This document shows positions 10,813 through 37,952 of a stretch of DNA of 64,000 nt, piece by piece. How positions within the stretch are numbered: the stretch's first letter is position 1; every line of letters begins with the position of its first letter. The stretch spans positions 7,582,001 to 7,646,000 of the forward strand of contig NZ_CP048113.1 of NCBI RefSeq assembly GCF_010093065.1, read 5' to 3'. The position numbers were made by a program, and so were the translations under genes. The stretch comes from Chitinophaga agri. Lineage in GTDB: Bacteria > Bacteroidota > Bacteroidia > Chitinophagales > Chitinophagaceae. Under the pieces are notes generated by a model that saw nothing but the letters and a program-made list of their open reading frames with translations, made no database searches and was not told the origin of the DNA.

Positions 10813-10830
10813 TAGATGGTTTACCGTTTA

Positions 10831-11019: not shown

Positions 11020-11087
11020 AAAATAGTATTTAATAGTTATGCCTACTGTTATGGGGTTTCGGCTTATCCCCTTATTGCGCAATGTTT

Positions 11088-19446: not shown

Positions 19447-19607
19447 ATTGTCAGCTTAATTCGATACAAAGTTCGTCAGCCGGCGGTCCGGTAAAGGATA
19501 CTTTTGCGTATATTCCGGATACAAATAGAACATGGCAATCCTGCTTTGTCCCGGTTGTAAGCTGAAATCCTGTTTCCGCAGGATATTTTTTGAACATTGT
19601 CAGTATC
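19447..19607. promoter_or_regulatory. Divergent promoter region of the MFS and AraC genes
   Basis: 161-base intergenic region between divergent starts. On the + strand TACTTTTG at 19499-19506 matches the -7 consensus TAnnTTTG and would serve the AraC gene; I see no good -33 TTTG at the right distance and no clear - strand promoter. Likely site of AraC-type control, by position only. Confidence 0.35.
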
Positions 19608-20477
19608 ATGAAGCGTATCGATAAATATGAAGGATTGTATGGGGAACGTGCACCGAAACCTGAGACAGGTTACCTGTATTCAGAACTGCTGTGTACCCGT
19701 AGCCGGGAATACGACTGGTATATTGAGCCGCATGTTCATCCTGCGTTATACCAGCTGTTTTTTGTGGAAATTGGTCATTTTACCTTCTTCGAGGCGGACC
19801 GGCAGCGACGGCTGGCAGCCCCCTGTCTGATACTGATCCCGCCCATGGCCCTGCATGGATTTGACTATGAGTCGAAGGCCGACGGGCATATTCTGACATT
19901 GTCGGACGTGATGGTCGATACCCTGTTTCCCGGAGAGACGTTAACGCCGATGCTCACCGGTATACGTTGTTTCAATGATTTCAGTGGTCCCTATACGGCT
20001 ACAGCTATACAGGCACTGATGCAGGCGGTAGGCATTGAATTGTTCAATGATCAGCCGGAAAAGCAGCTGATGTTACGTGCCTGTCTGCAGCAGCTTTTTC
20101 TGGCAGTTTACCGGATGTGGCAATATTCACAGCAAACCGCGACACAGTCAGATAATCATTCGCTGGGATACTTCCGTAAATTCCAGCAACGCATCAGGGA
20201 AGCGGGTACAACGCAAAGTATTGCGGCGTTGGCAAAAGAACTGGGCATTACACCTGTACATCTGAACCGCATTTGTAAAGAGGTAGCCGGAAGATCAGCA
20301 GGACAACTGGTGCAGGACCATCTGCTTGAAGAGGCGAAAAAATACCTTCGCTATACTTCTTATTCAATATCAGAAATCGCTTATCTGTTGAATTTTGAAT
20401 ATCCCAATTACTTTGCACGTTTCTTCAGAAAACATACTGGTATGACGCCGGGTGCATTCAGGGAGCATCAGGCATAG
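19608..20477 (+). CDS. AraC-family transcriptional regulator with cupin-type sensor domain
   Basis: 289 residues from the ATG at 19608; a TTG 18 bases upstream is in frame but less likely. The N-terminal part (about 20-110) has the AraC_binding cupin pattern YDWYIEPHVHPALYQLFFVE, with His residues that may bind a ligand or metal. The C-terminal ~100 residues form two helix-turn-helix units: SIAALAKELGITPVHLNRIC and SISEIAYLLNFEYPNYFARF, ending with the family tail FFRKHTGMTPGAFR. It probably regulates the divergent Bcr/CflA exporter; the inducer is unknown. Confidence 0.9.
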   Translation: MKRIDKYEGLYGERAPKPETGYLYSELLCTRSREYDWYIEPHVHPALYQLFFVEIGHFTFFEADRQRRLAAPCLILIPPMALHGFDYESKADGHILTLSDVMVDTLFPGETLTPMLTGIRCFNDFSGPYTATAIQALMQAVGIELFNDQPEKQLMLRACLQQLFLAVYRMWQYSQQTATQSDNHSLGYFRKFQQRIREAGTTQSIAALAKELGITPVHLNRICKEVAGRSAGQLVQDHLLEEAKKYLRYTSYSISEIAYLLNFEYPNYFARFFRKHTGMTPGAFREHQA

Positions 20478-20749: not shown

Positions 20750-21436
20750 ATGTCTGCTTCCATCGGTAGTACAATCGAGCAGGATACCTGTTCCATCCAG
20801 GTAGTGAATGTTGGTACGAATACGATTACGGTAAGGTATGAAGGCCTGCCTGGTAATCAACCCAAAGATTATGGGAATTTTGTGGCGGTATGGGAATCTA
20901 CAACGATCCCCTGGAATGTTGTGCCTGTAAGGATTGCGCCGGTACCACAGAACTCAGAGTCGGGTGACTTTGTGATCGGTGGACTGACCATCACTGCTAA
21001 TGCCTACATTGTTGGCTACGGCGTAGGACCGGCTATTACTGATATCTGTACCTGCGCTTTTATTTCGCCTATTGTGTCATTGGCCGCAACAAAGCCTGTT
21101 ACAGTTTCGATGACGTTGCTGCACGTAGACATCAACTCATTATCTGTTCAGTATTTTACCCTACCCGGATACCTGCCGGGGTACTACAGGAACTGGATCG
21201 GCATATGGGAAGGATACGCTTCTCCATACAATGCCGTGCAGCCGATAGGTTTTACAAACATCACCAGTAATGCCAATCAAGGCGCTGTAGGTATTGATCA
21301 TCTCACTTTGTATCCAGGTACTGTGTATACGCTTGTTTATTTTATGGGGGCAATGGATCAAAATTGCCAATACCCCAAGATATTAAAGAACGCCGCCGCC
21401 ATACTCTACTTTGAGACACCGCCGGCCACTATCTGA
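20750..21436 (+). CDS. Two-repeat beta-rich protein of unknown function (first of a paralogous pair)
   Basis: 228 residues, no signal peptide. Two homologous ~100-residue units: the first has TITVRYEGLPGNQP, then GNFVAVWESTTIPWN and ITANAYIVGYGVGP; the second has SLSVQYFTLPGYLPGYY, then RNWIGIWEGYASPYN and LYPGTVYTLVYFMG. The common pattern is x-L/I-x-V-x-Y-x-x-L-P-G, about ten residues, N-[FYW]-x-[AG]-[VI]-W-[EQ], then P-[WY]-N, suggesting a small beta-sandwich. The next gene has the same two units. I do not recognise the family. It begins a run of four co-directional genes that ends with a 4075-residue protein and probably forms an operon with them. Confidence 0.7.
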   Translation: MSASIGSTIEQDTCSIQVVNVGTNTITVRYEGLPGNQPKDYGNFVAVWESTTIPWNVVPVRIAPVPQNSESGDFVIGGLTITANAYIVGYGVGPAITDICTCAFISPIVSLAATKPVTVSMTLLHVDINSLSVQYFTLPGYLPGYYRNWIGIWEGYASPYNAVQPIGFTNITSNANQGAVGIDHLTLYPGTVYTLVYFMGAMDQNCQYPKILKNAAAILYFETPPATI

Positions 21437-21470
21437 AACCGTATTTTCTCACATTCAAACTCCAATACTC

Positions 21471-22214
21471 ATGAGTACCAAACATGATTCTTTTGCCCCT
21501 GAAGTAGCCCCTGACACGCTTATTGCAGTGAATACGCGACTGCTGACCACCTCCATCAACATTACCCAGGCAGGACAGAACTTTGTAAGTGTATCCTACA
21601 ATACGCTGCCTGGTAACAATCCAAGTGCAAACGGAAATTATCTTGCCGTATGGCAGACAAACGACAACAGTATTCCCTGGAATACACCTGCAATAAAGAT
21701 AAAGAAACTCACAGGTGTCAACTCAGCAGGTGATACCATTATCGATGGTATTAACCTGACTGCCAACAGCTACCTGGTGGCTTATGGCGTAGGACCCGAA
21801 TTAAGCGGCTCCGGTCAGCAGAAATATGGCAACGCCTGCGCGACTGCATTTATCTCCGCACTGGGACAGCCACCAAGAGATCCGTTCAGCCCAACCATCA
21901 AGCTGAATAACTTAGGTACCAATTCACTCATTGTGGATTTTCGCCTGCCTGTAAATATTACCCCTCAGTCTAATGGTGCATGGATAGGTTTGTGGGAAGC
22001 CGATTCTATCTCCTATAACACACAACCTGATTACGCAAACAGCATCACCATTGATAAGGGTACTGGCCAGGCATTCATGACCGATATCGTTATCGGACGT
22101 GATACGACCTACACACTCGGTTTATTCCTGAGCGGATGGCAGGGTAGTGGAAAGATTAATGGCCTTGGCGCTGCCGCAGCTGAGCTGACATTCCAGTCTC
22201 CGTCAGATCTTTAG
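21471..22214 (+). CDS. Two-repeat beta-rich protein of unknown function (second of a paralogous pair)
   Basis: 247 residues from the ATG at 21471; a longer in-frame start at 21411 would overlap the preceding gene and has no support. Two units again: VSVSYNTLPGNNPSANGNYL with AVWQTNDNSIPWN and LTANSYLVAYGVGP, then SLIVDFRLPVNITPQ with GAWIGLWEADSISYN and DTTYTLGLFLSGW. Its first unit is closest to the first unit of the upstream gene (shared GNxxAVW, IPWN, ANxYxVxYGVGP), so the whole gene was duplicated after the internal duplication. It has ~25 extra N-terminal residues and no signal peptide. Function unknown. Gap of 34 bases to the upstream gene. Confidence 0.7.
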   Translation: MSTKHDSFAPEVAPDTLIAVNTRLLTTSINITQAGQNFVSVSYNTLPGNNPSANGNYLAVWQTNDNSIPWNTPAIKIKKLTGVNSAGDTIIDGINLTANSYLVAYGVGPELSGSGQQKYGNACATAFISALGQPPRDPFSPTIKLNNLGTNSLIVDFRLPVNITPQSNGAWIGLWEADSISYNTQPDYANSITIDKGTGQAFMTDIVIGRDTTYTLGLFLSGWQGSGKINGLGAAAAELTFQSPSDL

Positions 22215-22246
22215 TCAACAGATAATGCCATTGCTCCTTTGAACTT

Positions 22247-22278
22247 GTCATGGGCCATAAGCGATTATGGCTCATGAC
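22247..22278 (+). promoter_or_regulatory. 14-bp stem-loop between the repeat-protein gene and the 1151-residue gene
   Basis: Arms 22247-22260 and 22265-22278 pair over 14 bp (one G-U) around the loop GCGA, followed shortly by CCCTTTTT at 22284-22290. It resembles an intergenic attenuator or partial terminator, or an mRNA-stabilising hairpin. The longest reading of the next gene would place its ATG (22250) inside the stem, an argument for the later start at 22295. Confidence 0.55.
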
Positions 22279-22294
22279 TATAACCCTTTTTACT

Positions 22295-25200
22295 ATGTAC
22301 TTCACCAGATCATTTACAGATAAGCTATATATCGCACAGAACACCTCCGGCGACAGCGGTTTTATGGCTTTGGTTACGCCGGTTAACGCGCCCGATAAAA
22401 CACAGATCAGCCTTACCGAAGCACTGACCAATAATACCTGGGGCGGTAGTTTTACGATATCTGCAAAGACGCCTCAGATAACCAATAAAGCGCAGGCGGA
22501 TGCTTTTGTAAATGCTATCAGTAATGTGGTGGGAATTACCAGGCAATTTATCTGGTTACGTGATGTCAATAACCTGACATCAGGTAATATGTTCAATGCC
22601 CAGTTCGGCGTCAGTGGTAATGCCGCTTCGCTGAATACGGGCCTGACTTTCGTACTTACGCCAACGCTAAACTTCCTTATCAGGAACGGTGCCAGCATTA
22701 CGCCCGATGCCAATGACAACGCCCTGTTGTTCTCTGGCACCGTGATTGGTTTCGACGGCGCCAGTGCCCCGAAAATGTCTCAGGCAACTGAGGCGGCACT
22801 TCCCTGTACCGGTGGCACAAAAGGATGTATAGTATTTCCCGGTTTCATTGAACGCACTTCTTTGCTGAATAATATGCAATGGGGTTTCCAGTTGCTCATA
22901 CCCGATGGGAATGGCGGCACACAATCCTCCTGGCAGCCTTTTGTGAATCCTAACGTTGGTCCTACACAATACATAGGGTTCAATATCTCTATTGATCCTA
23001 CGGATGTATTTAATGAAGTATTTGATCCCTGTGACGGTAATGAATGTGCGATCCCGGCGGCATATGCGTCCCGCAGGACCTTCTTCGATTTTACCGGCAA
23101 AGACCTGAAAGAAAATGATGTCAGACTTGTTAGCTACTATACGACCGTATTTGGTTATAACGTGACCCTGGTGCCTGGTACCACCGGTAACGTTACCTAC
23201 AATGCCCGCCTGGTATTTTCACTGAGTGATAAGGGTGGTACCGCATTTGTCGGTTTCCACCTGTCGCCGGAAGGAGACTATATTATAGCGTTACCGGATA
23301 CTGCCGGGCAGGATAATTATTACTTACTCTGTGGCATGTCGGGTACTGAGTTCTTTAAAGTAACACCACAGATCAGCAGCGCTAAAGGTGACATCCTACG
23401 CTTCCTGTCGCGCAGACCCGCCTATGTGCCTATATTCCCTTTACCTGTGGCGTCACCCGTGGGCGTGCCTATTGACCTGAACCAGTCACCGTTGAATACG
23501 CAATATCGTACTTCCTGGGCTACAATAGTAAATAACTCCGGTAATCCGGTGTTTTATGTATCTCAGCCAGCTGGCGCGTCACTATATGGTACCGACAAAC
23601 TGATAGAACCTAAGTTCAATGATCTGCTGGGACATACCACACCTGGTTTCCAGTTCTCCGCAACGGATAGTAGTTTCTTTCCGATGTTTCCTTATACGGG
23701 TATGAAGTCAGATTATAGTGTCATTCCTTCATCAGGTGTGGCAGATCTGGAGAGTACAGTGGTCAGCCCTGAACGCAGGCGTATCATTGCCGGCTTCACC
23801 GGCAATACCGGAGGGAATGGTAATCAGAAGAATGAAACGACACCGGCAGGGATTATCTCAGATATCACACAGGACGATCAGGGGGCTATCATTAAGTGGA
23901 ATGATTTCACGCTGGGCTGGAATATTGATAACGGCGTGAAGTATACACTGGCTTTCCAGGACCCGCCTGTACCCCTGGTCAATGCACTGCAGTCCAGTGA
24001 TGTTATGCTGGTGGTAGCAAATAATAAGCACCTGGGTACCTTCCTCAATGAGATGAGTATCGGCAGCTGGCTGATGAAGATCGATACAGGCGTCGATCAG
24101 GCTTATAATGACTATAGAAATGTAATCATCATCAAAGGACGGAAGGGCAAACTGTATGATGCGGGTGCTGAGGCAAACAGTCTGGTGGCGAATCCGCTGA
24201 ACTGGACACAGCGCCGTGATTTTGCTATTCCTAATGATGATGAGACACAGCTCGTCATTCTTTCACAGTGGATCCAGAATTACTTCTCTGAAGCGGCCGG
24301 GCAAAGTGGTAATCCTTATTTTGATAAGTTCAATGCGATAGCCGCAGATGAAAACTGGACGGGTATTTTATTCCTGCGCATCAATGTCGAAGATGTACCT
24401 GTGAACCTCAAAGGTATTATGGCTGGCATCACTGATCCGGATGCTTTTAATGCGCATCACCTGGGAATAGAGATCAGTCCTGTGAAGAAAGGTGACAACG
24501 GGCCCATAGCTGATCATCCGGCGGCTATCTTTGGACTGATATACTACCTGGACCCTGATTTCACTGACCAGAAAGATCCTGAGACCATTGCGCCGGCTAC
24601 CAATGGCGACTATGATTACAGACTGCTTTCCCTCAAAGTACTGTTTGAGAATACGGCTGTCAGGAGCTTTGAAAGCTATGCACAGCTAACCCTGAACAAG
24701 GTATTGGGTTCGGCGGTGACACGGATGCTCACGCCGGAAAGTATATATCACAATATACTGTTGACAGGTACTTTGCAGATCAATAATGGTAACCCGTTAT
24801 ATACATTGAGCAGCCAGAAGGATGACGCCTTTTATCTCAACAGCAATATCATCCGGAGAGTAGAGATCAATCATGTCATGCTTTCTACCCGGTCAGCCGC
24901 AGGCGCACCAGAGACGCAATGTTGGTTTGCCATGTCTGGCTTTATAGATTACTTCGCGCTCCGGGATGATACAACCGGTGTGTTTGATGTATTCTCTTTT
25001 GGTAATACTGATGGACAGGATATACCTGGACAGGGACTTGCGTTCTCTAATATGGGTATCAGTATGACCTTCCCGGCTGTTGAACCGGCTGACAGCACAC
25101 TTACCTTCTCGACGGCGGAAATTACATTTGATCTGTCTCATAGTACACCAAGAACGAATTCACTTTATACCAATATGCTGCTGGATATGGAGTCGCTGCA

Positions 25201-25750
25201 AACTGGTACTGCTACCAGCACGCCTAAAGATAATGGCTACCTGGATGTATTGCCTGACCTGCGGATGAGTGGCGTGAGCGGGCAGGAATGGCTGGGACTG
25301 CGTATGAAACTGAATATGGGTACGCCCGGAGAACTGGCAGGTAAGATAGGGCTGAACGCCTGGCTGTTGTTGTACTGGTCGCCGGATAGTACGGATGACA
25401 CGGGCTACCAGGCAGGGATCAGTATATCGCTGCCAGGCACGGAGAGCGGCGCAAAGCTCATCAGCCTGCAGAATGTAATGAAGCTGTCCATTGGTCAGAT
25501 AAGACTGTTATATATCAAAGACAAGCAATCCTTCCTATTGTTATTTACAGACATCGCACTGAAGTTCATCGGTCTGCTGAAAATACCATCTGGCGGTAAT
25601 ACACTCTTCTATCTCTTTGGAAATCCCGGTGCAGGTGGCAAGACTTCCGGCCTTGGCTGGTATGCTATGTATGCAAAGGATGCAGTAAAACTGAATACAC
25701 AAACCACCACTAAAGTTAAAGTTCATGAGCCACAACTTCTCGAGCAGTAA
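22295..25750 (+). CDS. Large beta-rich protein of unknown function (1151 aa)
   Basis: 1151 residues from the ATG at 22295 (MYFTRSFTDKLYIAQ). Starts at 22250 or 22274 would add a stretch encoded by the hairpin and look spurious. There is no signal peptide, lipobox or transmembrane segment. The sequence is dominated by short alternating hydrophobic strands and by Gly, Asn, Thr and Ser, pointing to an all-beta structure. A segment with DPCDGNECAIPAAYA near residue 253 carries clustered Cys. The C-terminal part (GLNAWLLLYWSPDS, LFTDIALKFIGLLKIPSGG, LGWYAMYAKD) resembles parts of the giant protein that follows, so they may share a domain. I do not recognise a family. It overlaps the next gene by 26 bases if that gene starts at 25725, so the pair is translationally coupled. 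Confidence 0.7.
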   Translation: MYFTRSFTDKLYIAQNTSGDSGFMALVTPVNAPDKTQISLTEALTNNTWGGSFTISAKTPQITNKAQADAFVNAISNVVGITRQFIWLRDVNNLTSGNMFNAQFGVSGNAASLNTGLTFVLTPTLNFLIRNGASITPDANDNALLFSGTVIGFDGASAPKMSQATEAALPCTGGTKGCIVFPGFIERTSLLNNMQWGFQLLIPDGNGGTQSSWQPFVNPNVGPTQYIGFNISIDPTDVFNEVFDPCDGNECAIPAAYASRRTFFDFTGKDLKENDVRLVSYYTTVFGYNVTLVPGTTGNVTYNARLVFSLSDKGGTAFVGFHLSPEGDYIIALPDTAGQDNYYLLCGMSGTEFFKVTPQISSAKGDILRFLSRRPAYVPIFPLPVASPVGVPIDLNQSPLNTQYRTSWATIVNNSGNPVFYVSQPAGASLYGTDKLIEPKFNDLLGHTTPGFQFSATDSSFFPMFPYTGMKSDYSVIPSSGVADLESTVVSPERRRIIAGFTGNTGGNGNQKNETTPAGIISDITQDDQGAIIKWNDFTLGWNIDNGVKYTLAFQDPPVPLVNALQSSDVMLVVANNKHLGTFLNEMSIGSWLMKIDTGVDQAYNDYRNVIIIKGRKGKLYDAGAEANSLVANPLNWTQRRDFAIPNDDETQLVILSQWIQNYFSEAAGQSGNPYFDKFNAIAADENWTGILFLRINVEDVPVNLKGIMAGITDPDAFNAHHLGIEISPVKKGDNGPIADHPAAIFGLIYYLDPDFTDQKDPETIAPATNGDYDYRLLSLKVLFENTAVRSFESYAQLTLNKVLGSAVTRMLTPESIYHNILLTGTLQINNGNPLYTLSSQKDDAFYLNSNIIRRVEINHVMLSTRSAAGAPETQCWFAMSGFIDYFALRDDTTGVFDVFSFGNTDGQDIPGQGLAFSNMGISMTFPAVEPADSTLTFSTAEITFDLSHSTPRTNSLYTNMLLDMESLQTGTATSTPKDNGYLDVLPDLRMSGVSGQEWLGLRMKLNMGTPGELAGKIGLNAWLLLYWSPDSTDDTGYQAGISISLPGTESGAKLISLQNVMKLSIGQIRLLYIKDKQSFLLLFTDIALKFIGLLKIPSGGNTLFYLFGNPGAGGKTSGLGWYAMYAKDAVKLNTQTTTKVKVHEPQLLEQ

Positions 25751-28700
25751 TCCCATGGATATTGCTGCACAGTTAAATAGGATTTCAATGGTGTCAGATG
25801 GTGCAAATGAGGATAGCTTTCAGGCCGAGAAAACTGATACGATCAATTATCTGAATAAACAACAGGAGATAAGGGCATTGGTAGTAGGTAGCCAGAATTT
25901 TGGCCACCTGGCGGCCACCGTTGGTCTTATCAACAGGATGGCTTCTCTCTCGGACGATGTGTTGTATTCAATCTGTTTATATTATGCAGACAACTGGCAG
26001 GGGGAAACCGAAATAAAGATAGTGATAGATGCACTGCAGGTGCTATTGCCACAATTCAAGGAACTGAATACTGAGTTCAAAGTGATTTCAGCGCAGAACA
26101 CGAACCGTGTCAGGGTGATAGATATTGTCAGGGATATTCCTTCTGCTATAGAGCTGGGTTTTACCGGTGGTTGTGATGATGGTGAGCGCTCCGATCTTAA
26201 TGACGGTATCAAGGCGATGCAGGTAGATTATTTTCTGAAATTACAACCCTATTACTGGCATCTTGGGGCAGATGAGTGTATGCGACTTATCACCAATAAA
26301 GAGAAAACGGTGAGTCTGGATGATTATTACGAAGACGAGGGGATCAATTTTCACCGGTTAGCGTATTATAAGGCATCCGCTGTGCTCACTGATTTCGACA
26401 GACAGGTGATAGCCGATTCGAAATATGCATCTAAACTGGAGGTAGCGCTTTACCTTACACAACGTACACAGGCAGCCCAGCTGAATTTGTGTGCTGTATA
26501 TGGAATAGAAACCTATACTGCACCGGAGGTCGCATTATATAATATCAGTGCCGGCATTCTTGAGACACAGTCTGAAGGAGCAGGAGGTGCTAAACAGTCA
26601 CTACCATGTGTGGTGCTGCTGTTTCAGGAAATAACGGCAGCTGGCTGGAATATATTTACAACACTGGTGAGTGATCCATCTTCGCCTGCACTGGCGGACG
26701 AAGATAGGGCTTCTGCTACTTTTCTCAGTTGGCATAAGAAGAGAAATGTCTCAGCTAATGTGAGTGTCCTCGGTGGCCCGGACAATTATCCGGACCTGGG
26801 AACAGTGACTGCTGCGGTGAATCAACTCCATGCAGGGCAGGTGCTGGTTATTTACTTTGGGAATGTTCCCCAGACACTGTATGACTATCTGTATTCCTCG
26901 TCAACATATCCTACGGTGTTTGAAGGACAGGCAACTGCTTCCACGGTTTTCAATTTTGGGAAGCCGTTCTTTAAATACAGTAAGGGACAAGAGGACGTCA
27001 CCACGGACTATCCCACCGTGGATAATATAGACAATGATGGGGAAGCGGGTGCTGACGCACAGAATAGCCGCAGGATAGCATCAGGTCTGTTCACCGCATC
27101 GCCGGCTACCTGGATTAGCAGGAAAGTTAAAAAGAAGCAACAGCATGAAATATTTCCTGTGTCAGGTATCAGCAGCATTAACAGACAGGCTTTCGATGAT
27201 GAGGATGATGGATATTTTGATGAGATCGGAGATTATTTTCATGACGAAGAGAACGATAAGTTCCTATATGGAATGTCTGCATTGCTGACATTGAAAGAGA
27301 ATGATTTTGTTTTCACTACTGACGAGGCCCTGAAGCTGCAGGCAGCCGCAGGCAATGAAAAGCTGCTGGAGTTCTATAAGAAAATAGAGGGTCAGTCTAC
27401 AGTAGACCTGACTGCGGCGTTGGGCAGCGGTTTCTGTTATGACTGGTTTAGTAAGGTCTCCCTGAAGGGGACACTGACCGTGAACGATGCTGTTGCTGCT
27501 ATTAATGGCGATAATACTTTGGTTACACTTAGCGGTAAGACGTCTTCTTTCCTGATACCAGGGTTAGGCGTTGCGTTTAAGTTCACGGAAAGCAAGGAAC
27601 AGCTCCTTGCTGTTATGACGATGACTTTTGATGCAGGCAGTTTTAGTCTGCCTAAGGTTCCCTGGTTGCAATTTCCAGGTACCACTACCTGTGAAATGAA
27701 CCTGGATCCGACAGCGACAGTGCCGGCCAAAGGTACATTCACTGTGACTGTCACAGCAGGCGTGACCACCACAATGCAACTGAAGATTCCTTCAGATCCC
27801 AATACCTGGTCATTACAGGCGCAGTTTGGCGATAACTTCCCTAATCTCAATGATATCTTTCAGTTTGTTGGTGGTATCAACCTGCGCGAGATCCTGCCGC
27901 AACAGCTGGGCATCGTGACAGATATCAGGGTGTCCAGCCTGGGGTTTGCCTATAATTATAGTACCGCTGCTATCCGTTATATTTCTTTCCGGGCCAGGAC
28001 ATCAGACGGAACTTCATGGAAACTTGTGCCTGGTGTGGAAATCAGCCAGCTATCTTTTGGGATGTCTGTGGATCGTCCCATAGATATGAACAACCGTGTT
28101 ACCATTGGTAACATTGGAGGTGTGTTTGGTATCGGTGATGGCAAGCTGAGTATCAATGCAGGTATGCCAGACATCATCATAGATGGCGGCCTGTTGCCGG
28201 ATAGTCCGCCTGTTTCTGTGCAGTCCATACTGTCCGCGTATCTGGGGGATCAATATGCGGCTGCGTTGCCCACCGCTATCAAGGATACGGCAATCGCACT
28301 ACTGACATTTAAATTAAACAGTATTGCCGGTGTATACAGCTTCGCGATGAAGGTAACTGCTGACTGGCAGATCCCATTGGCGGGTGTCAACATATTTACG
28401 ATCACGGAACTGGGATGTGACATATCGGCTATTGTCGCACAGGCAGATAATTCCGGAAATGCCGTGACAGCAAAGGATACCAGTGTGACGGGCAGCTTCT
28501 CCGGTTCAATTGTGATCCTGCCAGACTCAGATAAGATCACACTTGTTGCTTCTGCTGCGTATAAAGGCAGCGACAAGGGCTGGACATTCACCGCTAAACA
28601 GACGACTGGTGAGGTAAGCCTGATCAGACTGTTTACCGCTTATCTTCCAGCTGACTGGAAGCCAGACCCCTCCCAGTTTGACATTACCATTAATGGTTTA

Positions 28701-31700
28701 GGCATTACGATTGAAACCGTGACCAACTCGTGGGAATTTACTGGTAAAACAGCGAAGCCGATCCATATACCAGGTATTAACCTGGACATCACCATGAACC
28801 TGTTATGTGGCTACAAGGCGGCAGGAACAGCTGTAGACGCTGCAGCCCTGCTACTCTCATCGGGCGTGTCTGATGTGGTGATACCTGTGCTGGAAGTAGA
28901 TAATGAAGGCGTATTACAGGTAGCTGGTTACTATGGTGCTCTCAGTGCCACGATCAAATGGGAGAATATCGAACTGACTGTTTTCTATGATTTCAAACCT
29001 GACTATAAAGCCTATGGCATCCGCTGGTGGGTACTGGAAGGGAAGATCGTAGAGCAGGGGGGGAAACAGATCGCTACCCTGAGTTTCCGGGAATCCATCA
29101 CCTTAGGGGCGATGGTGGAGAAAATGATCTCCTGGGCCACGGGTTCTTCGTACAGTCTGGCAGCTCCATGGAGCATACTGAATGCTATTTCACTGAATAA
29201 CCTTTCCCTCGAATATAACTTTACGGATAAACAGGTCAGCTTTAACGTGAACATCGGCCCGATAGAAATGGGCTTCGCACGTATTGATGGTATCTCAGTG
29301 ACTTATAAATCCAATCAGCCGGATCCGGAAGACAACGGTGTGATCGTTGAACTGAAAGGGTCCTTCCGCTGGCAGGATGACAAGAGTAAGCCACTCAGCT
29401 GGGATGCCGCCAGACCTGAGACAACACCTGCTCCGGAAGGACAGGGGAACAAATACCTGGACCTGCGACTGCTTGCCCTGGGACAGCATGTAACGCTGCC
29501 CTGCTTTTTGACAGCTGATACTGTTCAGAAAGCGATTGAGTGTATGAAGCAGTTGCCGGTACCAGATAAGAACAATATCACCATTCCTCCTGTAACGCTG
29601 GATGCGAACAGCTCCTGGCTGATAGGAATGGACTTTGGCGTATTACGTTTCGGTGGAGATGATACTGATAAGAAGCTGTCACTGGAGGATGCTGCATCAA
29701 AAGCTGGTTACCTGCTGACCATGCAGATCATCTTCAATGATCCGAATCTGTATGCGCTGCGGATCAAGCTGGACGGGGAATCGGCGAAGGTGTTCAAGGG
29801 ACTGGATTTCCAGATCATGTATAAAAAGGTAAGTGATACCATCGGTTTGTATAAGGCAGAGATCACATTGCCCGACAAGATGCGTTTCATCAGAATGGGA
29901 CAGGTCAATTTCACCCTGCCGGTATTTGGTATGGAGTACTATACCAACGGCGATTTTCAGGTGGATGTGGGCTTCCCCTGGAAGGAAGATTTCTCCCGTT
30001 CATTTACCTTCCAGACATTGATATGGACCCCGGTAGGTATCCCTATTCCAGTCATGGGATCGTTAGGCGTGTATTTCGGTAAATTGTCCAGCGCGACGAC
30101 CAGCAGGGTGCCTGCGATTGATAATGGTACGTTTAATCCGGTACTGGTATTTGGTTTTGGTATACAGTTCGGATTGGGTTATACATTTGATATTGGCATT
30201 CTGAGGGCAGGCTTCAGCCTCACCATTGTGGCTATCCTGGAAGGGATACTCGCTAAATTCAATCCTTATCAGCTCACAGATGGCAGTGGCAGAACCGACC
30301 AGCTGGAAACATCTTATTACTTCTGGCTGAAGGGCACGGCTGGCATCATTGGTAAACTGTTTGGTACTGTAGATTTTGCTATCATCAAGGCAGATGTAAA
30401 TATCGATATCCGTATACTGGCATCCTTCACCTTTGCGCCTTACGAGCCGATAGAACTGAACCTGACCGCATCCGTAAGTGTGTCCCTCTCCGTAAAGATC
30501 AACCTGGGTCTGTTTAAGATAAAGATCAGTTTCAGCTTCTCCGCGAAGATCTCCCAGACAGTCACTATCAAGGGTATCGGTGGTACTTCTCCATGGCATG
30601 TAGTGCCTTCCGGCAATGCGATGGTATTGGCATACCGCAGGGGGCGTGTCAGGGCATTACAGCTGCGTGAAGCATCAGCTATTACGGTCAACTGGAATAA
30701 CCTGGCAGCACCGGCGGCCACTATCCCCCTCAAAGGTTATATGGGGCTCGGTCTGACAATGGCAGGTGATAATGCAGGTCAGTTGTCAGAACAGCTGCCC
30801 TGTTATGTGGCCATGATGTTTATCGACTCTGTTGAGGGACCACAGGAAGACCGCACCAGTGCACGCCTGAAGGCATTCACGGATACACCAGATACTTCTT
30901 TTGAAGCACTTGCGAAAATGATCCTGCGCTGGGTGGCAGCCGCTCTGCAATCACAGCCGGTTACACCCGGTCAGGCAGACCAGGTGATCATCAGGGAAGA
31001 TCAGCTCACGCAGTTGCTCGCTGTGTTAAATGATCCGGAAGGGGCAGGTATATTTACCAACGCCCAGATCAACGCCTTCATGACTAATCAGTTCAGTATG
31101 CAGGTGGCTGGTCCGGATACAGACCAGCAGGTGACAGGCGCTTACTTCCCGCTGGCGCCGGATGTCAGTCTGTCAATGGCTGCATATGGCAGCAGTTATC
31201 CTGCCCTGTCATACACACTGGGAGGCTATAATAATACCTCGGAAGATTACAGGAAGTTCCTCCGTGAATACTTTGAGCAACTGGCCGTATATGCGTCTCA
31301 GCAAACAGCTGCTGACGGTCGGCAATTCTCATTGCAGGATGATAGTAGCGAATCGCTCGGCAGCTTTGTCTTCAATGATTACTTTGTTATGATCTCGAGA
31401 CAACTGGTGCAGACAGCACTGGATGCCCTGAAAGAGTTCAAGTATTTCGTTCAGGCAAATGATACGCCTGCACAGATCGTTAATACCGTTAATGCTGGTG
31501 CAAACCTCTCTGGTGGTGCTGCTTACTCCGTAGCGGAACTGTTTGCGGACAATAGCGCTGCGGCATTGACGGCAGGTAGTAAACTCAGTATGCAGGGCGC
31601 TTCCTGGATCGTACAGGCCAATGATACGTTCAACAGTATCGCAGCCAATACACTGTTTGGTGGTGCTTTCAATGGTGCGGCGCTGGCTGCACGTAATGCC

Positions 31701-34700
31701 GCGATGCAGCATACCCTGAACACTGGTATTACAATCAATTATCCGGACAAAACAGCTTATACTACGCAACCAGGAGAATCGCTGGATGATGTGGCAGCAG
31801 CGATAGGAGTCAGCACGAGCGATCTGATTGCCAATGGCGGTGTTGCGTCACTTGCCAATCTGCCGCTCCCGGTAGCGACATTGGCTTTACCTGACTTTGT
31901 GTACACTACAATAGAGGGGGATACACTACAAAGCATTGCGGCTAAATTACACCTGGCAGAAGAACTGCTGGCAGTGCCTGATAGCAATAGTAAAGTCACT
32001 AACCTGTTTGCTGGGGAGACACTTGACATCGCTAACCTGACCCAATATAAGGTTGGTGAACTGATAAAGGAAATGCAGGCTACACAGGGACTGCAACACC
32101 TGTCAGGTATGACCTCCCGTTACTATATGGCAGGGCTGCGTTTGCCAACAGATGGCATCTCTCCGTTGCAGAAAGGTATGTGGGTAACCGGTACCTCAGT
32201 TAATGACTATAAACTGCCGCCATTCGCAGGTCTTTATGCGCTTACTGGTCAGCAGTTCCCGGTACCGGCGTTAAACACAACAGATACATTTAATGTCACC
32301 ATAGGTAACGGCGGTCTCGGATGGCTCACCTTCACCGGCGCCGATCCGGCTAACCTGACAATTGCTGTTGCACCAGGCAGTGATAGTGCCAACCAGATTA
32401 CACTGGTCAAGGCATATGCGACCAGTAACAGGCTGGACACCGGTATGAGTTTCCTGGGTATGAACGGCATGTTCAACACCAAACCGGCTACTTATTCATT
32501 CTCTACACAGGTGGACTGGAGCGCTGCTTCTGTTTTTGCTATGCCATATAGCGGTGCCACTACGGGTACGCCAGGTATGCAGTTATGGATGTTACCAGAC
32601 AACCTGCTACAGTTGCCTGATCCGGGGACACGTATGGTCAATCCGCGTATTATCGCGAAAGTTGGAACCTACCAGGAAGCTGTCAGGGGGATGGTCAGCC
32701 GCGATCTGCAGAATTACGGGTATGCTTCATTGGTAGCGTTCACAATTAAAAAGGTGCCGGTGGTGCTCACCAGTCCATCGACCCTGACGATCTATGAAGT
32801 AATGGGAGCCGATGGCAACAGTGCTAATATACTGGAACGTATAGTCAGTGAAGTGGGTAATGATGTTAGTATGATCCAGTCGCTGATCCTGGCTTACCAG
32901 GCAGATGCGACCAGTACGACCACCAGCGGTATTCAGACAGACAATGCTGCCGCCCTCACAATGGGACTGGCACAGGTGAACCTGTCTACCGAGACCAGGC
33001 CGGACATGACAATGGTAAGCAGTCGTGCGTTACAGCTGGATGAAAGTACTGGTATGACGTTGCTGAATGACAAAACTACCTTCATACGACTGTTATGGGA
33101 AGCAGCGATCACCCGCTCGGGAGGTTATTTCCTCTATTATTTTAACAGCGATAACAACGGTGGGTTACCCGACAGGATCTTCAATGACAAAGATGAGGCG
33201 CTGGTATCCCTGGTTGTACTATATGCTAAACCAGCAGAACAGGCATTACAGGATACGGTGACCGGATATATGAATGCGCTGGTCACTACGGAGACATTTG
33301 ATCCGCAGAAATCAACACTGTTTGGAGAAGCAACTCCACTGGAAAATCTGACGGTTCCGGCAGATGCGACGCAGACACTCTCCAGTCTCGCTTATGCATA
33401 TTATGGTAATGTGGCGGAAGTAGCAGCAGATAATGCAGGACTGCAACTGAGGAAGGGACTGACCATTAACGTGGCAGAAGGTGTCTACGAGGCAGGACCG
33501 GCAGCACCCGGTGGAGACCTGAATGCTATTGCCAGTTATTTTGGTACAACTGCACAGGCTATTCAAAGCAGTAATCCACAGCAGACAAGCTGGCCGGTAA
33601 AACAGTTCACATCGATCTATCTGCCAGCGCTGACAGTCAGTTCGAATGACTACAATACCTTAGGTGCGATTGCGAAAAAATACGGGTTATCGCTCACGGC
33701 GCTGGCTAATCAGAACAAGGATCTGCAGGGTATTTTCAGCGATGGACAACAGATCGCGATCAGTGGTGGTCCTGTAGAAATAGCGGCTACCGTACCTCAG
33801 GGCAATATCACCTGGGAAGCAGTACGTCAGCAGCCAGCGGCTATCCCGGATAAACCCGAAGGGGCGGACTATGGAAAGGTCTTCCTGCAGAATATGTATA
33901 GCCTGTTGTCTTACCAGGTCTATGGCAATGCATTCTTTAATGAAAGTAAACTGGGGCTACCAGCTAATCCAACCACTGAACCGGAAGACAACAACAGTCT
34001 CTCTAAAATGAATGTACCCAGAACGCTGGAGACAGGAGACGACTGGATATTCCGCGTAGCGGTGCCTTATACCCGCTTTGTAACCGCCAGTCCGGGTGTC
34101 GCCACCGGGTTATTACCTGATCCGGCGCAGAGTCCTTATAGCGGGTTAGGCAATCTGCTACAGGTGCAGTTCGCATGGCAGGACCTCTACGGTAACCGCC
34201 TGATCACAGACCTGTCTGATCCGCAGGCAGGAGACATTACACCGCTCAATATGCCGCCAGTGATCACTGGTTACAGTGATGCGCTCATCCCGCTGAATCA
34301 ATGGCCGTCAATAGCCGCTGTTTATAGTGTAGACAAGTATACCACGCCGCAGCTGAATGTATCATTCAGATTTGATCCCACTGTGTATGATGGACTGATC
34401 GCCGTGACAGCAATTGATAGTATTACGATCAACGCCTTGTTTACCGTGACATTGGACAAAGACAGTGCGAATACAGCCGCTAACTACACGATAGACCAGG
34501 GCGTTACTGTTTCCGCAGCGGTGTTACAGCCGGACAACAGGACCGTGAAACTGACAGTCAGCCAACTGCCGGACAATGGTGAAGTGACGGTGAATATCAG
34601 CAATATCTATAATACTGATAAATCACTGACTTTCCAGGGATACGCCGCCTTTAACCAGACGGAGGGCCTGAACAAGCCTTCATCTTCTGTCATTGATAAG

Positions 34701-37700
34701 GCAGCAGGTGATCTGATAACATATACCCAGGTATGGTATCAGCTGACGGATAGTTATGGTGTCGACTTCAAAGTAGCTACAACCCTGGTAACCGAAAGCT
34801 ATCAGCTGAGTCAGGCGCAGGTAAATAGCCTGGTGCAGGAATGGATCGCGTCGGTCTGGCAGTTCGTCAATAGCCGTGCACAGGGACTGACGACAGTTAC
34901 TACGCCGATAGGACAGCATGACATCACCTTTGATATCGATATCACGAAACTCAACCAGGAGGAGATGTGGCGGCTGGATACGGGCTTTACCATTGAAAGG
35001 AGCAGAGGTGTTGTGATGGGAGATCTGGAAACAGCGGGTAATATCCGTTCAGTAACCACTGTACTGACACCTTTTGCAGGCGCCGCGGGAGATACTGCAT
35101 CTGCGCTCAATTCATTTGTTGACAACTTTGAGGCAGCATTGGAGCAACCGGGTAATTACCGGCTGGAGGTAGCTACAGGTGTAGACAGGGAGGCCGCGCT
35201 GTCAGGTGCCCCCGGTAATCAGCTATGGGTAGTACGTACAGGACTGAAGAAAGAAACGGCGATCAACTATTATATCAATGATCAGCAGCCTGTATCAATT
35301 TTTGCACCGCGGCCGGTGTCCACACAACTACAGAGCAGGACAGGAGTGCCGATCTGGAATTTTGATCCGGTGAAGGGTATTTCTTTTGATGGCCAGCCTG
35401 ACAGAACGCTCGACTTCTCCGGCATCGATATGGACCAGTGGGCACAGTACCTGTTTGGTGTACTGGATAATGTACTGACATCCTCGTTTGTCGCACCGGT
35501 GCAGCTGGTGGATCAGCATATGGGTACCGCTTATTTCCAGACAATGCTGGACAACAAACGGGCACTGGCAGATATAATCCGTGAATGGATGACCTTCGTT
35601 TTTGCAGATGAATCGGGGCAGTTGGCCGACATACAGGAAGCATTTAAGCAGCAATTACTCGTACGGCTGACAAATGCGTATACGGTGAAGGCGGGGGTGC
35701 AATATACAGCGGTGGTGAATGCAGGTGATTTCAGGCTGTTTTTCGCGGGTGTAGATAAAACCAAACCCAACCTCGTCAACCTGGTATTTACGTCGGATAT
35801 CAGCCCGGAAACTGCTTCAAATGCGGCTAATTACAGTATCTCGGGCGGACTGAATGTAACGGCAGTGATCGCAGATGTTAACAATCCGCAGATCGTGACC
35901 TTACAGCTGAGCGGAAATGTTGTACCAGATGTGACGGTGGTGACAATAAAAAGCACTTTTTCCAGCGCCGGAGGCAGTACAATACAGCCGCCATTGTCCA
36001 TGACCGCTGTATATGGTGCGGCAGCAACGCCTGAACTGTTTGGTAACATCAGCCAGAATTTCCGCCTGCTGGCAGCAGTGCCGGCGAAGGAAGACCTGCA
36101 GTTATTGTTGTACTTCTCCGGTGTGCCGGATGCAACGGTGGTTACCAACACAGATAAATACCAGGTGTCTGGTCTGACGGTGACCAAAGCCGTGCAGGAC
36201 CCGGACAACCAGCAGATCGTTATACTAACAGTTTCAGGAGAGCCGGTGGCAGGTACGACTACCGTCGGCGTGACCCCGCCTTACTATGATGCATCAGGTG
36301 TTATGCTCCGGCCGGTGAGTGGTCTTATTGTGACTGCCACTGCGGATGTCAGCCACCGGACAGAAGGGATCAGTCTGACTTCGGCCAGGGTCAGTCTGAA
36401 GAACAGCGATAATGTGCCGCTGCCGTTCCTGGTATCGGCACCACAGCTTGTAAGAAATGACGATGGAGCGGTTCTTTCCTGGATAGACCTGGATACTTCC
36501 TATGAGGTGAGTGCTATAGAACATCAGATCGCATATCTACCGGATATAGCTGATTACAGGGCTTCCAGCTGGCTGAATTTTGCAGACCGGCCTGAAAGTC
36601 TGCAGACAGATCTTGGTCCGGTGAAAGTGCCTATGATCCTGCGGGCATATCCGACGCCACCTTCTATGGATAAACAGACAGGGGACTACCTGGTGAAGGC
36701 AGATAAGTCACTGAGCAATATTCTGTACTGGAATTATAACATCAATGTTTCACAGACGTACCATTATCCGCAGGATGAGCTGAATTTTACGGTACTGTTC
36801 AACGTGACACCTGATCCGGCTGCGAAACTCTTTGGACTGAAAGATGCATTCAACGAGCTGGCAGAATTCGTGACAGTCTATCCGGATGTAGCGAAAGTGT
36901 TCAATGATACGTTGATCAAAATAGATGCAAAGACAACAGACCAGTCAGTGTTTGATCAGTCTTCCACCGCATTACGTTCATTTAATGAGATGATAGGCAG
37001 GATCATCACCGCCGCCGCCGGTAATAATCTGAAAGCGTTCAATATGTACGCGTCTCCATGGGTGACCACGGTTGATCCTTACGTATTCAAACTGACAGAG
37101 GGTACAGGTACGGTAGATGTATATACGAATATATTGACCGTTACATTGACGGGAACACCGCCGGCGGGTATAGGTATACCAACAGTATTGATACCTGGTT
37201 ACGATACGCAGGTCTACGGTACACCAACAGCAGATACCTTCAGTTATTATTTTACTGCGAATGGCATACCGCTTTCAGCAGCCGTGGGACAGGCGATAGC
37301 ACCACGTGTGATACAGCTGCCGGACCTCAACCTGTTCGCACGGCAGAATATTCAGACCTCCGTTGAGATGAAGCGGAATGTGGATCTGGTACCTGGCCGG
37401 CAGACGGCGGACGATTTTATATACACGACCGGAGAGACTGCCTTCCCGGACCTGTTTAATCCGGTGCTTAATTATGCAGCACCGGTTGATATAGCGGCAG
37501 TGTCTACGGGTAGTGATCAGAAAGCGACTTTAAAAGCACAACTACAGTCGTTGTTTGATGTATTGCTCAGGTATAACTCGCAGGAACTGCTCAGTTTTAT
37601 GATGACCTGTTCCTATAATTATCAGTTGAACGCTGACATGCAGGGACTGGGTGAATTGCAACTGCCGGTAGTCATGCAGCCGTTGCAAACATTCAATGTA

Positions 37701-37952
37701 GATACTAAAAGCGTGGATACAGATTATAAGACACTGGTGGATATGATCGACGGATGGACCGGTAGTATACAGACCTGGTTCAATGAACATAAGCCAGACC
37801 CCATGGCCGGAAGATTATATTTTGAGTTATCTGTCTTCTCGAACCTGGATGATAATACGCCGAAGCCACTGTTACGACTGACAGGATTATACCTGGACCT
37901 GTTGTATATATCAGATGTGAGTACCGTATTCTTAAAAGAAGGCGTTCTGTAG
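25725..37952 (+). CDS. Giant multidomain protein (4075 aa) with LysM-like and SbsA/Ig-like modules
   Basis: No signal peptide. Residues ~45-450 are a globular domain beginning RALVVGSQNFGHLAATVGLI; near 371 it reads VLVIYFGNVPQTLYDYLYSS followed by PTVFEGQATAS, reminiscent of GT-B glycosyltransferase C-domains (weak). Residues ~600-1650 are long beta-rich stretches such as NGDFQVDVGFPWKEDFSRSF, possibly the uncharacterised DUF6603 type, which I cannot confirm. LysM-like motifs occur near 1910, 1962 (WIVQANDTFNSIAANTLFGG), 2011 (YTTQPGESLDDVAAAIGVST), 2060, 2550 and 2642. Three Ig-like (SbsA/Big_5) units lie near 2892-2980, 3343-3420 and 3455-3535. The start at 25725 overlaps the previous gene; Met11 (25755) would begin 4 bases after its stop. 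Biological role unknown; the preceding three genes are the obvious partners. Confidence 0.75.
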   Translation: MSHNFSSSNPMDIAAQLNRISMVSDGANEDSFQAEKTDTINYLNKQQEIRALVVGSQNFGHLAATVGLINRMASLSDDVLYSICLYYADNWQGETEIKIVIDALQVLLPQFKELNTEFKVISAQNTNRVRVIDIVRDIPSAIELGFTGGCDDGERSDLNDGIKAMQVDYFLKLQPYYWHLGADECMRLITNKEKTVSLDDYYEDEGINFHRLAYYKASAVLTDFDRQVIADSKYASKLEVALYLTQRTQAAQLNLCAVYGIETYTAPEVALYNISAGILETQSEGAGGAKQSLPCVVLLFQEITAAGWNIFTTLVSDPSSPALADEDRASATFLSWHKKRNVSANVSVLGGPDNYPDLGTVTAAVNQLHAGQVLVIYFGNVPQTLYDYLYSSSTYPTVFEGQATASTVFNFGKPFFKYSKGQEDVTTDYPTVDNIDNDGEAGADAQNSRRIASGLFTASPATWISRKVKKKQQHEIFPVSGISSINRQAFDDEDDGYFDEIGDYFHDEENDKFLYGMSALLTLKENDFVFTTDEALKLQAAAGNEKLLEFYKKIEGQSTVDLTAALGSGFCYDWFSKVSLKGTLTVNDAVAAINGDNTLVTLSGKTSSFLIPGLGVAFKFTESKEQLLAVMTMTFDAGSFSLPKVPWLQFPGTTTCEMNLDPTATVPAKGTFTVTVTAGVTTTMQLKIPSDPNTWSLQAQFGDNFPNLNDIFQFVGGINLREILPQQLGIVTDIRVSSLGFAYNYSTAAIRYISFRARTSDGTSWKLVPGVEISQLSFGMSVDRPIDMNNRVTIGNIGGVFGIGDGKLSINAGMPDIIIDGGLLPDSPPVSVQSILSAYLGDQYAAALPTAIKDTAIALLTFKLNSIAGVYSFAMKVTADWQIPLAGVNIFTITELGCDISAIVAQADNSGNAVTAKDTSVTGSFSGSIVILPDSDKITLVASAAYKGSDKGWTFTAKQTTGEVSLIRLFTAYLPADWKPDPSQFDITINGLGITIETVTNSWEFTGKTAKPIHIPGINLDITMNLLCGYKAAGTAVDAAALLLSSGVSDVVIPVLEVDNEGVLQVAGYYGALSATIKWENIELTVFYDFKPDYKAYGIRWWVLEGKIVEQGGKQIATLSFRESITLGAMVEKMISWATGSSYSLAAPWSILNAISLNNLSLEYNFTDKQVSFNVNIGPIEMGFARIDGISVTYKSNQPDPEDNGVIVELKGSFRWQDDKSKPLSWDAARPETTPAPEGQGNKYLDLRLLALGQHVTLPCFLTADTVQKAIECMKQLPVPDKNNITIPPVTLDANSSWLIGMDFGVLRFGGDDTDKKLSLEDAASKAGYLLTMQIIFNDPNLYALRIKLDGESAKVFKGLDFQIMYKKVSDTIGLYKAEITLPDKMRFIRMGQVNFTLPVFGMEYYTNGDFQVDVGFPWKEDFSRSFTFQTLIWTPVGIPIPVMGSLGVYFGKLSSATTSRVPAIDNGTFNPVLVFGFGIQFGLGYTFDIGILRAGFSLTIVAILEGILAKFNPYQLTDGSGRTDQLETSYYFWLKGTAGIIGKLFGTVDFAIIKADVNIDIRILASFTFAPYEPIELNLTASVSVSLSVKINLGLFKIKISFSFSAKISQTVTIKGIGGTSPWHVVPSGNAMVLAYRRGRVRALQLREASAITVNWNNLAAPAATIPLKGYMGLGLTMAGDNAGQLSEQLPCYVAMMFIDSVEGPQEDRTSARLKAFTDTPDTSFEALAKMILRWVAAALQSQPVTPGQADQVIIREDQLTQLLAVLNDPEGAGIFTNAQINAFMTNQFSMQVAGPDTDQQVTGAYFPLAPDVSLSMAAYGSSYPALSYTLGGYNNTSEDYRKFLREYFEQLAVYASQQTAADGRQFSLQDDSSESLGSFVFNDYFVMISRQLVQTALDALKEFKYFVQANDTPAQIVNTVNAGANLSGGAAYSVAELFADNSAAALTAGSKLSMQGASWIVQANDTFNSIAANTLFGGAFNGAALAARNAAMQHTLNTGITINYPDKTAYTTQPGESLDDVAAAIGVSTSDLIANGGVASLANLPLPVATLALPDFVYTTIEGDTLQSIAAKLHLAEELLAVPDSNSKVTNLFAGETLDIANLTQYKVGELIKEMQATQGLQHLSGMTSRYYMAGLRLPTDGISPLQKGMWVTGTSVNDYKLPPFAGLYALTGQQFPVPALNTTDTFNVTIGNGGLGWLTFTGADPANLTIAVAPGSDSANQITLVKAYATSNRLDTGMSFLGMNGMFNTKPATYSFSTQVDWSAASVFAMPYSGATTGTPGMQLWMLPDNLLQLPDPGTRMVNPRIIAKVGTYQEAVRGMVSRDLQNYGYASLVAFTIKKVPVVLTSPSTLTIYEVMGADGNSANILERIVSEVGNDVSMIQSLILAYQADATSTTTSGIQTDNAAALTMGLAQVNLSTETRPDMTMVSSRALQLDESTGMTLLNDKTTFIRLLWEAAITRSGGYFLYYFNSDNNGGLPDRIFNDKDEALVSLVVLYAKPAEQALQDTVTGYMNALVTTETFDPQKSTLFGEATPLENLTVPADATQTLSSLAYAYYGNVAEVAADNAGLQLRKGLTINVAEGVYEAGPAAPGGDLNAIASYFGTTAQAIQSSNPQQTSWPVKQFTSIYLPALTVSSNDYNTLGAIAKKYGLSLTALANQNKDLQGIFSDGQQIAISGGPVEIAATVPQGNITWEAVRQQPAAIPDKPEGADYGKVFLQNMYSLLSYQVYGNAFFNESKLGLPANPTTEPEDNNSLSKMNVPRTLETGDDWIFRVAVPYTRFVTASPGVATGLLPDPAQSPYSGLGNLLQVQFAWQDLYGNRLITDLSDPQAGDITPLNMPPVITGYSDALIPLNQWPSIAAVYSVDKYTTPQLNVSFRFDPTVYDGLIAVTAIDSITINALFTVTLDKDSANTAANYTIDQGVTVSAAVLQPDNRTVKLTVSQLPDNGEVTVNISNIYNTDKSLTFQGYAAFNQTEGLNKPSSSVIDKAAGDLITYTQVWYQLTDSYGVDFKVATTLVTESYQLSQAQVNSLVQEWIASVWQFVNSRAQGLTTVTTPIGQHDITFDIDITKLNQEEMWRLDTGFTIERSRGVVMGDLETAGNIRSVTTVLTPFAGAAGDTASALNSFVDNFEAALEQPGNYRLEVATGVDREAALSGAPGNQLWVVRTGLKKETAINYYINDQQPVSIFAPRPVSTQLQSRTGVPIWNFDPVKGISFDGQPDRTLDFSGIDMDQWAQYLFGVLDNVLTSSFVAPVQLVDQHMGTAYFQTMLDNKRALADIIREWMTFVFADESGQLADIQEAFKQQLLVRLTNAYTVKAGVQYTAVVNAGDFRLFFAGVDKTKPNLVNLVFTSDISPETASNAANYSISGGLNVTAVIADVNNPQIVTLQLSGNVVPDVTVVTIKSTFSSAGGSTIQPPLSMTAVYGAAATPELFGNISQNFRLLAAVPAKEDLQLLLYFSGVPDATVVTNTDKYQVSGLTVTKAVQDPDNQQIVILTVSGEPVAGTTTVGVTPPYYDASGVMLRPVSGLIVTATADVSHRTEGISLTSARVSLKNSDNVPLPFLVSAPQLVRNDDGAVLSWIDLDTSYEVSAIEHQIAYLPDIADYRASSWLNFADRPESLQTDLGPVKVPMILRAYPTPPSMDKQTGDYLVKADKSLSNILYWNYNINVSQTYHYPQDELNFTVLFNVTPDPAAKLFGLKDAFNELAEFVTVYPDVAKVFNDTLIKIDAKTTDQSVFDQSSTALRSFNEMIGRIITAAAGNNLKAFNMYASPWVTTVDPYVFKLTEGTGTVDVYTNILTVTLTGTPPAGIGIPTVLIPGYDTQVYGTPTADTFSYYFTANGIPLSAAVGQAIAPRVIQLPDLNLFARQNIQTSVEMKRNVDLVPGRQTADDFIYTTGETAFPDLFNPVLNYAAPVDIAAVSTGSDQKATLKAQLQSLFDVLLRYNSQELLSFMMTCSYNYQLNADMQGLGELQLPVVMQPLQTFNVDTKSVDTDYKTLVDMIDGWTGSIQTWFNEHKPDPMAGRLYFELSVFSNLDDNTPKPLLRLTGLYLDLLYISDVSTVFLKEGVL

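Follow-up and report, generated by a model that had tools for sequence, protein, structure and literature searches.

Tc toxins are described as heteromeric assemblies in which a constant carrier bears a variable toxic domain (PMC7861908), and polymorphic toxins, according to one account, join a constant trafficking part to exchanged enzyme domains, HNH included; their toxin domains are C-terminal, LysM serves as an adhesion module and an immunity gene lies alongside (PMC3482391). Extracellular contractile injection systems (eCIS), as presented in PMC8213781, combine one shared machine with a range of toxins and fibres, occur in bacteria and archaea and in some cases have LysM and S74 domains. 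Here we describe a four-gene cluster (genes A to D) in a 64,000-nt stretch of the Chitinophaga agri genome (contig NZ_CP048113.1, positions 7,582,001 to 7,646,000), which is called the window below. Genes C and D stay linked in bacteria as well as archaea, and the pair is without a family in any library searched. We tentatively read C and D as the constant pair of a widespread module that would build a toxin-like delivery complex, in which a predicted barrel of D would carry an exchangeable, probably enzymatic part into another cell.

A first-pass annotation of the window, made from the letters alone, had reported four co-directional genes, with C coding for 1151 residues, D for 4075 and the two overlapping, and we recovered the same layout, in which the C/D overlap is 26 nt:

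20750..21436, + strand: gene A, 228 aa with two tandem repeats, a paralogue of B in an accessory small-protein slot
21471..22214, + strand: gene B, about 247 aa, a paralogue of A; a longer open reading frame (ORF) from 21411 has 267 aa
22295..25750, + strand: gene C, 1151 aa, beta-rich, the constant partner of D, with no known family
25725..37952, + strand: gene D, the 4075-aa giant carrier protein

A search with the second half of D matched 21 of 99 genomes, all of the same genus and the source genome included (G040, with an 81-residue match and a 1403-aa ORF, was not counted as a relative, and the locus of G043 was covered only in part). In all 20 same-genus loci, which came from 18 genomes, C lay upstream of D with at most two genes between them, and A and B were both present in 10. 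A profile of the D core (alignment A1) was then run against GTDB contigs and indicated 214 encoding stretches; the figures for wider loci given below refer to the best 80 of these 214, and 6 of the 80 had too little upstream sequence to test for C. C and D were linked in 74/74 testable wider loci, with C at most one gene away. In 71 of them C was found within 2.2 kb upstream of D, directly or one slot gene away, and in 3 further loci it was seen only by six-frame profile search, overlapping an over-extended D ORF. When profiles were run on 84 loci (the 80 plus L152-L155, short extra loci holding the core only), C was detected in 74, the D C-terminus in 75, the N-type domain found at the N-terminus of the window's D in 51 and AB-type proteins in 38, the last figure corresponding to 38 of the 80 wider loci. 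The four genes were thus not kept together as the single unit that had first been proposed: C plus D is constant, whereas A and B are replaceable accessories. Split ORFs were seen in some relatives, for D in G013 (L039/L040) and L088 and for C in L095, and may be natural, a sign of decay or the result of sequencing error.

The D core was found in Bacteroidota, Cyanobacteria, Clostridium, Planctomycetes, Spirochaetes, Actinomycetota, Proteobacteria, Acidobacteria, Methanosarcina and other hosts. The module was present in 4 of 395 Bacteroidota genomes, source genome included, which means that it is sporadic. In a tree of 81 D cores the window grouped with a genus relative and Oscillatoria (98% support in the Shimodaira-Hasegawa-like approximate likelihood ratio test, SH-aLRT), Methanosarcina grouped with Alphaproteobacteria (99% SH-aLRT), and Pseudomonadota needed at least 6 changes on well-supported branches. 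This topology suggests transfer between lineages, some of the long branches being uncertain. Eight plasmid records had module matches, with the proteins annotated as hypothetical, LysM or Ig-like, and the phage records searched for the module gave no match.

Profile searches of all four proteins against Pfam, PHROGs and NCBIfam (E up to 1) yielded no convincing match to A, B or C, and the sole family above a cut-off was LysM in D (residues 2637-2667; PF01476, E 6.3e-10, 39.3 bits vs. a cut-off of 20.9). Of the LysM-like and Ig-like modules first mentioned for the cluster, the former therefore stands, whereas no Ig family matched in D. The library scans showed no ATPase family for C or D, PADLOC gave no match for the window's C or for the N-terminal domain of D, and hhalign indicated an internal repeat pair in D near residues 2900 and 3460 (89%). 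Narrow word searches of open-access papers returned no description of the C-D module. The proposal that the cluster belongs to an undescribed system is supported by this absence of a family together with the C-D linkage in every testable locus of bacteria and archaea.

Membership of D in the DUF6603 family was considered and rejected, as Pfam gave none and hhalign gave 24-29% for the core and 47% over a 164-column stretch of D 520-1100. DUF6603 itself was found in 19 of 59 genomes searched, the source genome included, where it lies in an operon of large beta-rich proteins (L157, C1:519001-539000) that encodes proteins of 234 aa (tail-collar-like by eye), 241 aa, 1067 aa (DUF6603, at 8944-12147 of the locus), 764 aa, 1197 aa and 620 aa.

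Regions of D were delimited as follows, all on the + strand:

25725..27269, + strand: D residues 1 to about 515, variable slot domain, N-type
27477..29087, + strand: D residues about 585-1121, predicted repeats, each with about seven amphipathic strands and one short helix (model m12f2f97c9fd7)
29448..30575, + strand: D residues about 1242-1617, predicted porin-like beta-barrel, within the D region that was best conserved when five were compared
33633..33725, + strand: D residues 2637-2667, LysM domain (Pfam PF01476)
36492..37916, + strand: D residues 3590-4064, conserved C-terminal domain with no known family and no convincing match in the Protein Data Bank (PDB)

The first 515 or so residues of D are missing in many D proteins, and a separate gene between C and D then fills the slot. 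Among the 80 loci, the slot was N-type and fused to D in 46, N-type and separate in 5, endonuclease/exonuclease/phosphatase (EEP)-like in 22, of the metallo-beta-lactamase (MBL) fold in 2 and other in 2; none was seen in 3, two of which are cut by a contig end. L065 and L066 are sister loci (100% SH-aLRT) with 56% identity in C and 59% in D, whose slot pairs are unrelated, N-type vs. MBL. Because these loci share C and D but not their slot pairs, the slot was exchanged. Within the genus, L064 has an HNH slot pair, one member of which is above the Pfam HNH cut-off, and MBL slots occur as the pair in L066 and as single genes in L067 and L068. The EEP pattern fits 22 of the 31 separate slot genes, selected in part by the motifs WN and SDH; outside the selecting motifs, E, H, GDFN and DN were invariant in all 22; the slot protein of a Nostoc plasmid was just under the Pfam cut-off for EEP (E 1.2e-4). 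Six MBL-fold slot proteins carried HHGS (6/6) with HxHxDH (4/6) or HxDxDH (2/6), and the one in L140 was above the Pfam cut-off for MBL. Judged by these motifs, the active sites of the EEP-like and MBL-fold proteins appear intact. In the window's N-type domain R50, E400 and G401 were invariant in 44 aligned rows. The slot tally and the exchange between the sister loci agree with one trait of polymorphic toxins, an exchangeable enzyme domain on a constant carrier, the slot proteins being putative toxins.

Other slot genes code for 377 aa (L148, Fibrimonadaceae; no family) and 358 aa (L150, Lachnoclostridium), and in L180, a related locus on a Paenibacillus plasmid, a Nal1-type trypsin-like gene (6252-7232; Pfam E 1.1e-7, above cut-off) stands before the large genes. 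A GT-B reading of the D N-terminus, which came from Rossmann- and GT-B-like motifs picked out by eye, was dropped after 44 members gave no Pfam match, the PDB no convincing one and the MurG comparison described below 0.1% in hhalign.

Residues 1242-1617 of D are predicted to form a membrane-type beta-barrel, on the basis of a structure model and its structural matches; the alignment for this model, like those of the other models, excluded near-identical and incomplete rows. The D core is also present in Clostridium, Streptomyces and Methanosarcina, which are without a Gram-negative outer membrane. Signal peptides in relatives were flagged by a crude rule, which marked 0/75 D and 1/71 C proteins; the barrel is therefore unlikely to be meant for the outer membrane of the producer itself, as D goes unflagged and some producers that carry its core have no such membrane. 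The signal peptide expected for type V (two-partner or autotransporter) secretion was essentially missing in the same counts.

The upstream partners vary between loci. Elsewhere the A/B-type proteins are replaced by collagen-like proteins, in L072 by a pepsin-like protease, and in L097 by a Peptidase_S74 fibre preceded by a C10 peptidase gene; Peptidase_S74 is a tail-fibre chaperone domain, and the L097 partner is tailspike-like. A signal peptide was flagged on 12 of 59 AB-type proteins, the case of L118 being doubtful. Among 21 EEP-type loci with upstream genes, 17 had a flagged gene next to C and an unflagged gene before it, the exceptions being L127 (one flagged gene), L134 (two), and L128 and L151 (none). 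The first-pass annotation had stressed that no signal peptide or lipobox was present, which by eye is right for the four window proteins but does not extend to some small partners and MBL-fold slot proteins of relatives. The small upstream proteins are often paired, one member carrying a signal peptide or lipobox that the other lacks (L079-L085, L090, L091, L121, L122 and the EEP-type loci L124-L149). In the Chitinophaga variants L092 and L130 a conserved protein of about 380 aa, glycosyltransferase-like by eye, precedes a collagen-like gene.

Three readings had been offered at first: a toxin-like complex, a giant intracellular assembly, and a cargo exported by an unrecognised route. The toxin-like complex is favoured because of the exchangeable enzymes with intact active-site motifs, the exchangeable fibre- or adhesin-like partners, the predicted barrel without a signal peptide, and LysM. 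An intracellular assembly is less probable but keeps weight because some slot enzymes resemble the anti-phage effectors PtuB and LmuA, and the exported cargo is less favoured. As we see it, a constant carrier with exchangeable slot and binding proteins, taken with LysM, the predicted barrel and the missing export signal, would fit a delivery complex of the kind seen in Tc toxins and eCIS better than a structural or purely intracellular role. Such a complex would form in the cytoplasm from proteins lacking signal peptides and leave by lysis or some other route; LysM and the small or fibre proteins may bind the target or anchor the complex, and the D barrel would insert into the target membrane so that the slot enzyme could cross and act inside. 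In the window, the delivered part would be the N-terminal domain of D, and the exported small-protein paralogue of some loci may hold the complex at the surface of the producer or protect that surface. Still more guardedly, the module may represent an unrecognised class of delivery machine in bacteria and archaea, in which a giant soluble protein with its own porin-like barrel, an exchangeable enzyme, a constant partner of 1150-1200 aa and exchangeable fibres or adhesins work without an export signal.

Several results weigh against the toxin-like complex, and the first concerns immunity. The first three genes after D form no cluster spanning many genera (the largest downstream cluster consists of five Chryseobacterium loci, and the other nine listed clusters have 2-4 members), which would be compatible with unrelated immunity genes at individual loci. 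That no immunity gene is shared widely downstream is unusual for an antibacterial nuclease toxin, and it would fit a target in eukaryotes or a function inside the cell; PMC3482391 reasons likewise from missing immunity genes for latrotoxin-type toxins. The second concerns the slot. No Pfam family was found in the 44 members of the N-type domain, the window's slot domain gave nothing convincing against the PDB (best E 0.28), and the N-type profile reached 0.1% in hhalign with a MurG-type alignment that contained some wrong ORFs. The EEP assignment is motif-based, with no EEP listed by Pfam for L133 or L151. The MBL slot proteins of L139 and L140 (crude rule) and of L066 (by eye) have signal peptides and would leave the cell apart from D, and the HNH pair and the MBL-fold slot proteins are similar to PtuB and LmuA, effectors of anti-phage systems that act inside the cell.

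The third concerns structure and export. The barrel is a prediction with pLDDT 75.9 and pTM 0.42, the TM-scores of its listed Foldseek matches are at most 0.23, and C has no clear fold match. Strand-face alternation averaged 2.37 and 2.84 in earlier strands of D vs. 3.37 in the last seven strands; it is not specific to the barrel within D, so the same would be expected of a long sheet that binds lipids or has a structural role. No secretion or lysis protein was found among the 7 family-assigned flanking proteins of the window.

A different explanation, which we regard as unlikely, is that of a surface or extracellular structural or lipid-binding complex for adhesion, matrix or scavenging, whose slot enzymes process nutrients. 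Amphipathic strands run across most of D 600-1615, LptD and ApoB100 are also among the Foldseek matches, and the LysM and collagen-like partners, like the signal peptides on part of the AB-type proteins and on the C-adjacent gene in most EEP-type loci, would suit a surface complex. However, C and D are without a signal peptide and so have no ordinary route to the surface, and whole enzyme folds are exchanged in the slot, which a structural complex would hardly need.

We consider it less likely again that the module is an intracellular anti-phage immune system, in which C-D would be a giant sensor or scaffold and infection would release the slot enzyme as effector. In PADLOC the HNH pair of L064 matched PtuB of Septu at E 2.6e-26 and 5.7e-23, and the MBL slot proteins of L066, L067 and L140 matched LmuA of Lamassu (E 1.6e-12 to 2.1e-11). 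One MBL also bears a resemblance to the anti-phage protein 6A-MBL, at a score far under the cut-off. The trypsin-like gene of plasmid locus L180, the missing signal peptides of C and D and the patchy distribution agree with such a role as well, but LysM, the collagen-like and S74-fibre partners, the signal peptides on some partners and MBL slots and the predicted barrel all point outside the cell, and neither an ATPase family in C or D nor a PADLOC match for the window's own C and slot domain was obtained.

Dependence of the module on an eCIS is very improbable, and as a requirement it is ruled out: the marker Pvc16_N was found in 22/46 module genomes outside Chitinophaga vs. 77/395 Bacteroidota (Fisher p 5e-5, between groups that differ in taxa), in 10/16 when hand-sorted to Bacteroidota only (p 3e-4, kinship ignored) and in the source genome itself (C1:7664312-7664860, outside the window and 44 kb downstream of D), a sheath family that could be prophage was found in 4/5 module genomes, and LysM and S74 are given as eCIS shell domains in PMC8213781, but Pvc16_N is missing in 24/46 module genomes and in G054 and G059, which among module-bearing relatives in the genus are closest to the window, is carried by 55/60 genus genomes whether the module is present or not, and sheath and baseplate families are absent from A-D and the ten scanned flanking proteins, while a 4000-aa protein would be too long as tube cargo.

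For gene B the start at 21471 (247 aa) agreed better with relatives than the ORF start at 21411, and for C, whose ORF 22250-25750 has 1166 aa, the start at 22295 (1151 aa) matched the N-termini of relatives. A and B had been described as small paralogous repeat proteins, and they indeed share 33% identity across 222 aa (E 6e-33) and both contain internal repeats, whose halves align at E 5.5e-12 in A and 2.4e-4 in B. Of the ten flanking proteins scanned, seven had a Pfam family (ABC ATPase, DUF922, MFS transporter, AraC, PIN, methyltransferase and FAD-binding) and three had none; the earlier remark that no phage or transposon genes lie beside the cluster held among the seven. The gene just 5' of A is the following:

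19590..20477, + strand: AraC-family regulator (Pfam HTH_18, E 3.2e-23)

It is a possible regulator of the module, and an AraC-type gene is also found upstream in L094. A promoter and terminator scan upstream was uninformative (5 promoter-like sites vs. 4.0 in shuffles, no terminator). The GC content of A-D was 0.486 vs. 0.484 in the left flank, so there is no sign of recent foreign DNA. No empty site was shown, and the left DUF922 gene was matched (E 1e-40) in 7 of 58 relatives. To the right of D, at 38007-39446 on the - strand, lies a gene whose 479-aa product has hydrophobic stretches and a tail rich in Cys, Gly and Ser, and which had no match at E 1e-60 in 58 relatives.

If the delivery reading is true, soil and marine bacteria, cyanobacteria, Gram-positives and methanogens sporadically carry a whole class of giant machine that has escaped notice because both of its core proteins fall in no family and go under the labels hypothetical, LysM or Ig-like. 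It would also raise a new question of membrane biology, that of a porin-like barrel without a signal peptide in organisms without an outer membrane, and the exchangeable slot would be a ready list of candidate effectors.

Compared with known systems, the module shares with the DUF6603 proteins, one of which is encoded elsewhere in the source genome, large size, beta-rich sequence and operons of unexplained function, but D gives no Pfam DUF6603 match. The nucleases of Septu and Lamassu (PtuB and LmuA types) are matched by the slots of L064, L066, L067 and L140 and not by the slot domain of the window. PtuA and LmuB are the partner ATPases of these defence systems, whereas C and D contain no ATPase family and C has no PADLOC match. 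The predicted fold of D 1242-1617 resembles outer-membrane beta-barrels (porins, SprA of the type IX secretion system, SlpA), but this barrel would sit without a signal peptide within a 4000-aa protein and would occur also in organisms without an outer membrane. The eCIS (PVC, Afp) are alike in their varied toxins and fibres, their occurrence in bacteria and archaea and the LysM and S74 domains of some of them, but differ in that no sheath, tube or baseplate family is present in A-D or the ten scanned flanking proteins and that about half of the module genomes, as counted above, are without the marker. With Tc toxins (TcA, TcB, TcC) the module has in common a constant carrier with a variable part, and the best Foldseek matches of C include Rhs and TcB-TcC shells, the best of these at probability 0.07 and TM 0.05, values that do not establish a shared fold; on the other hand, Pfam (E up to 1) found no Rhs or Tc family in A-D by sequence, and what varies here is the N-terminus of D or a separate gene, and in Tc toxins the C-terminus of an Rhs protein. 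From polymorphic toxins the module differs in that its variable part is D 1-515 or a separate gene upstream of D rather than C-terminal, and in that no downstream gene is widely shared across genera, but it resembles them in its constant carrier with exchanged enzymes, HNH included, and in its LysM domain.

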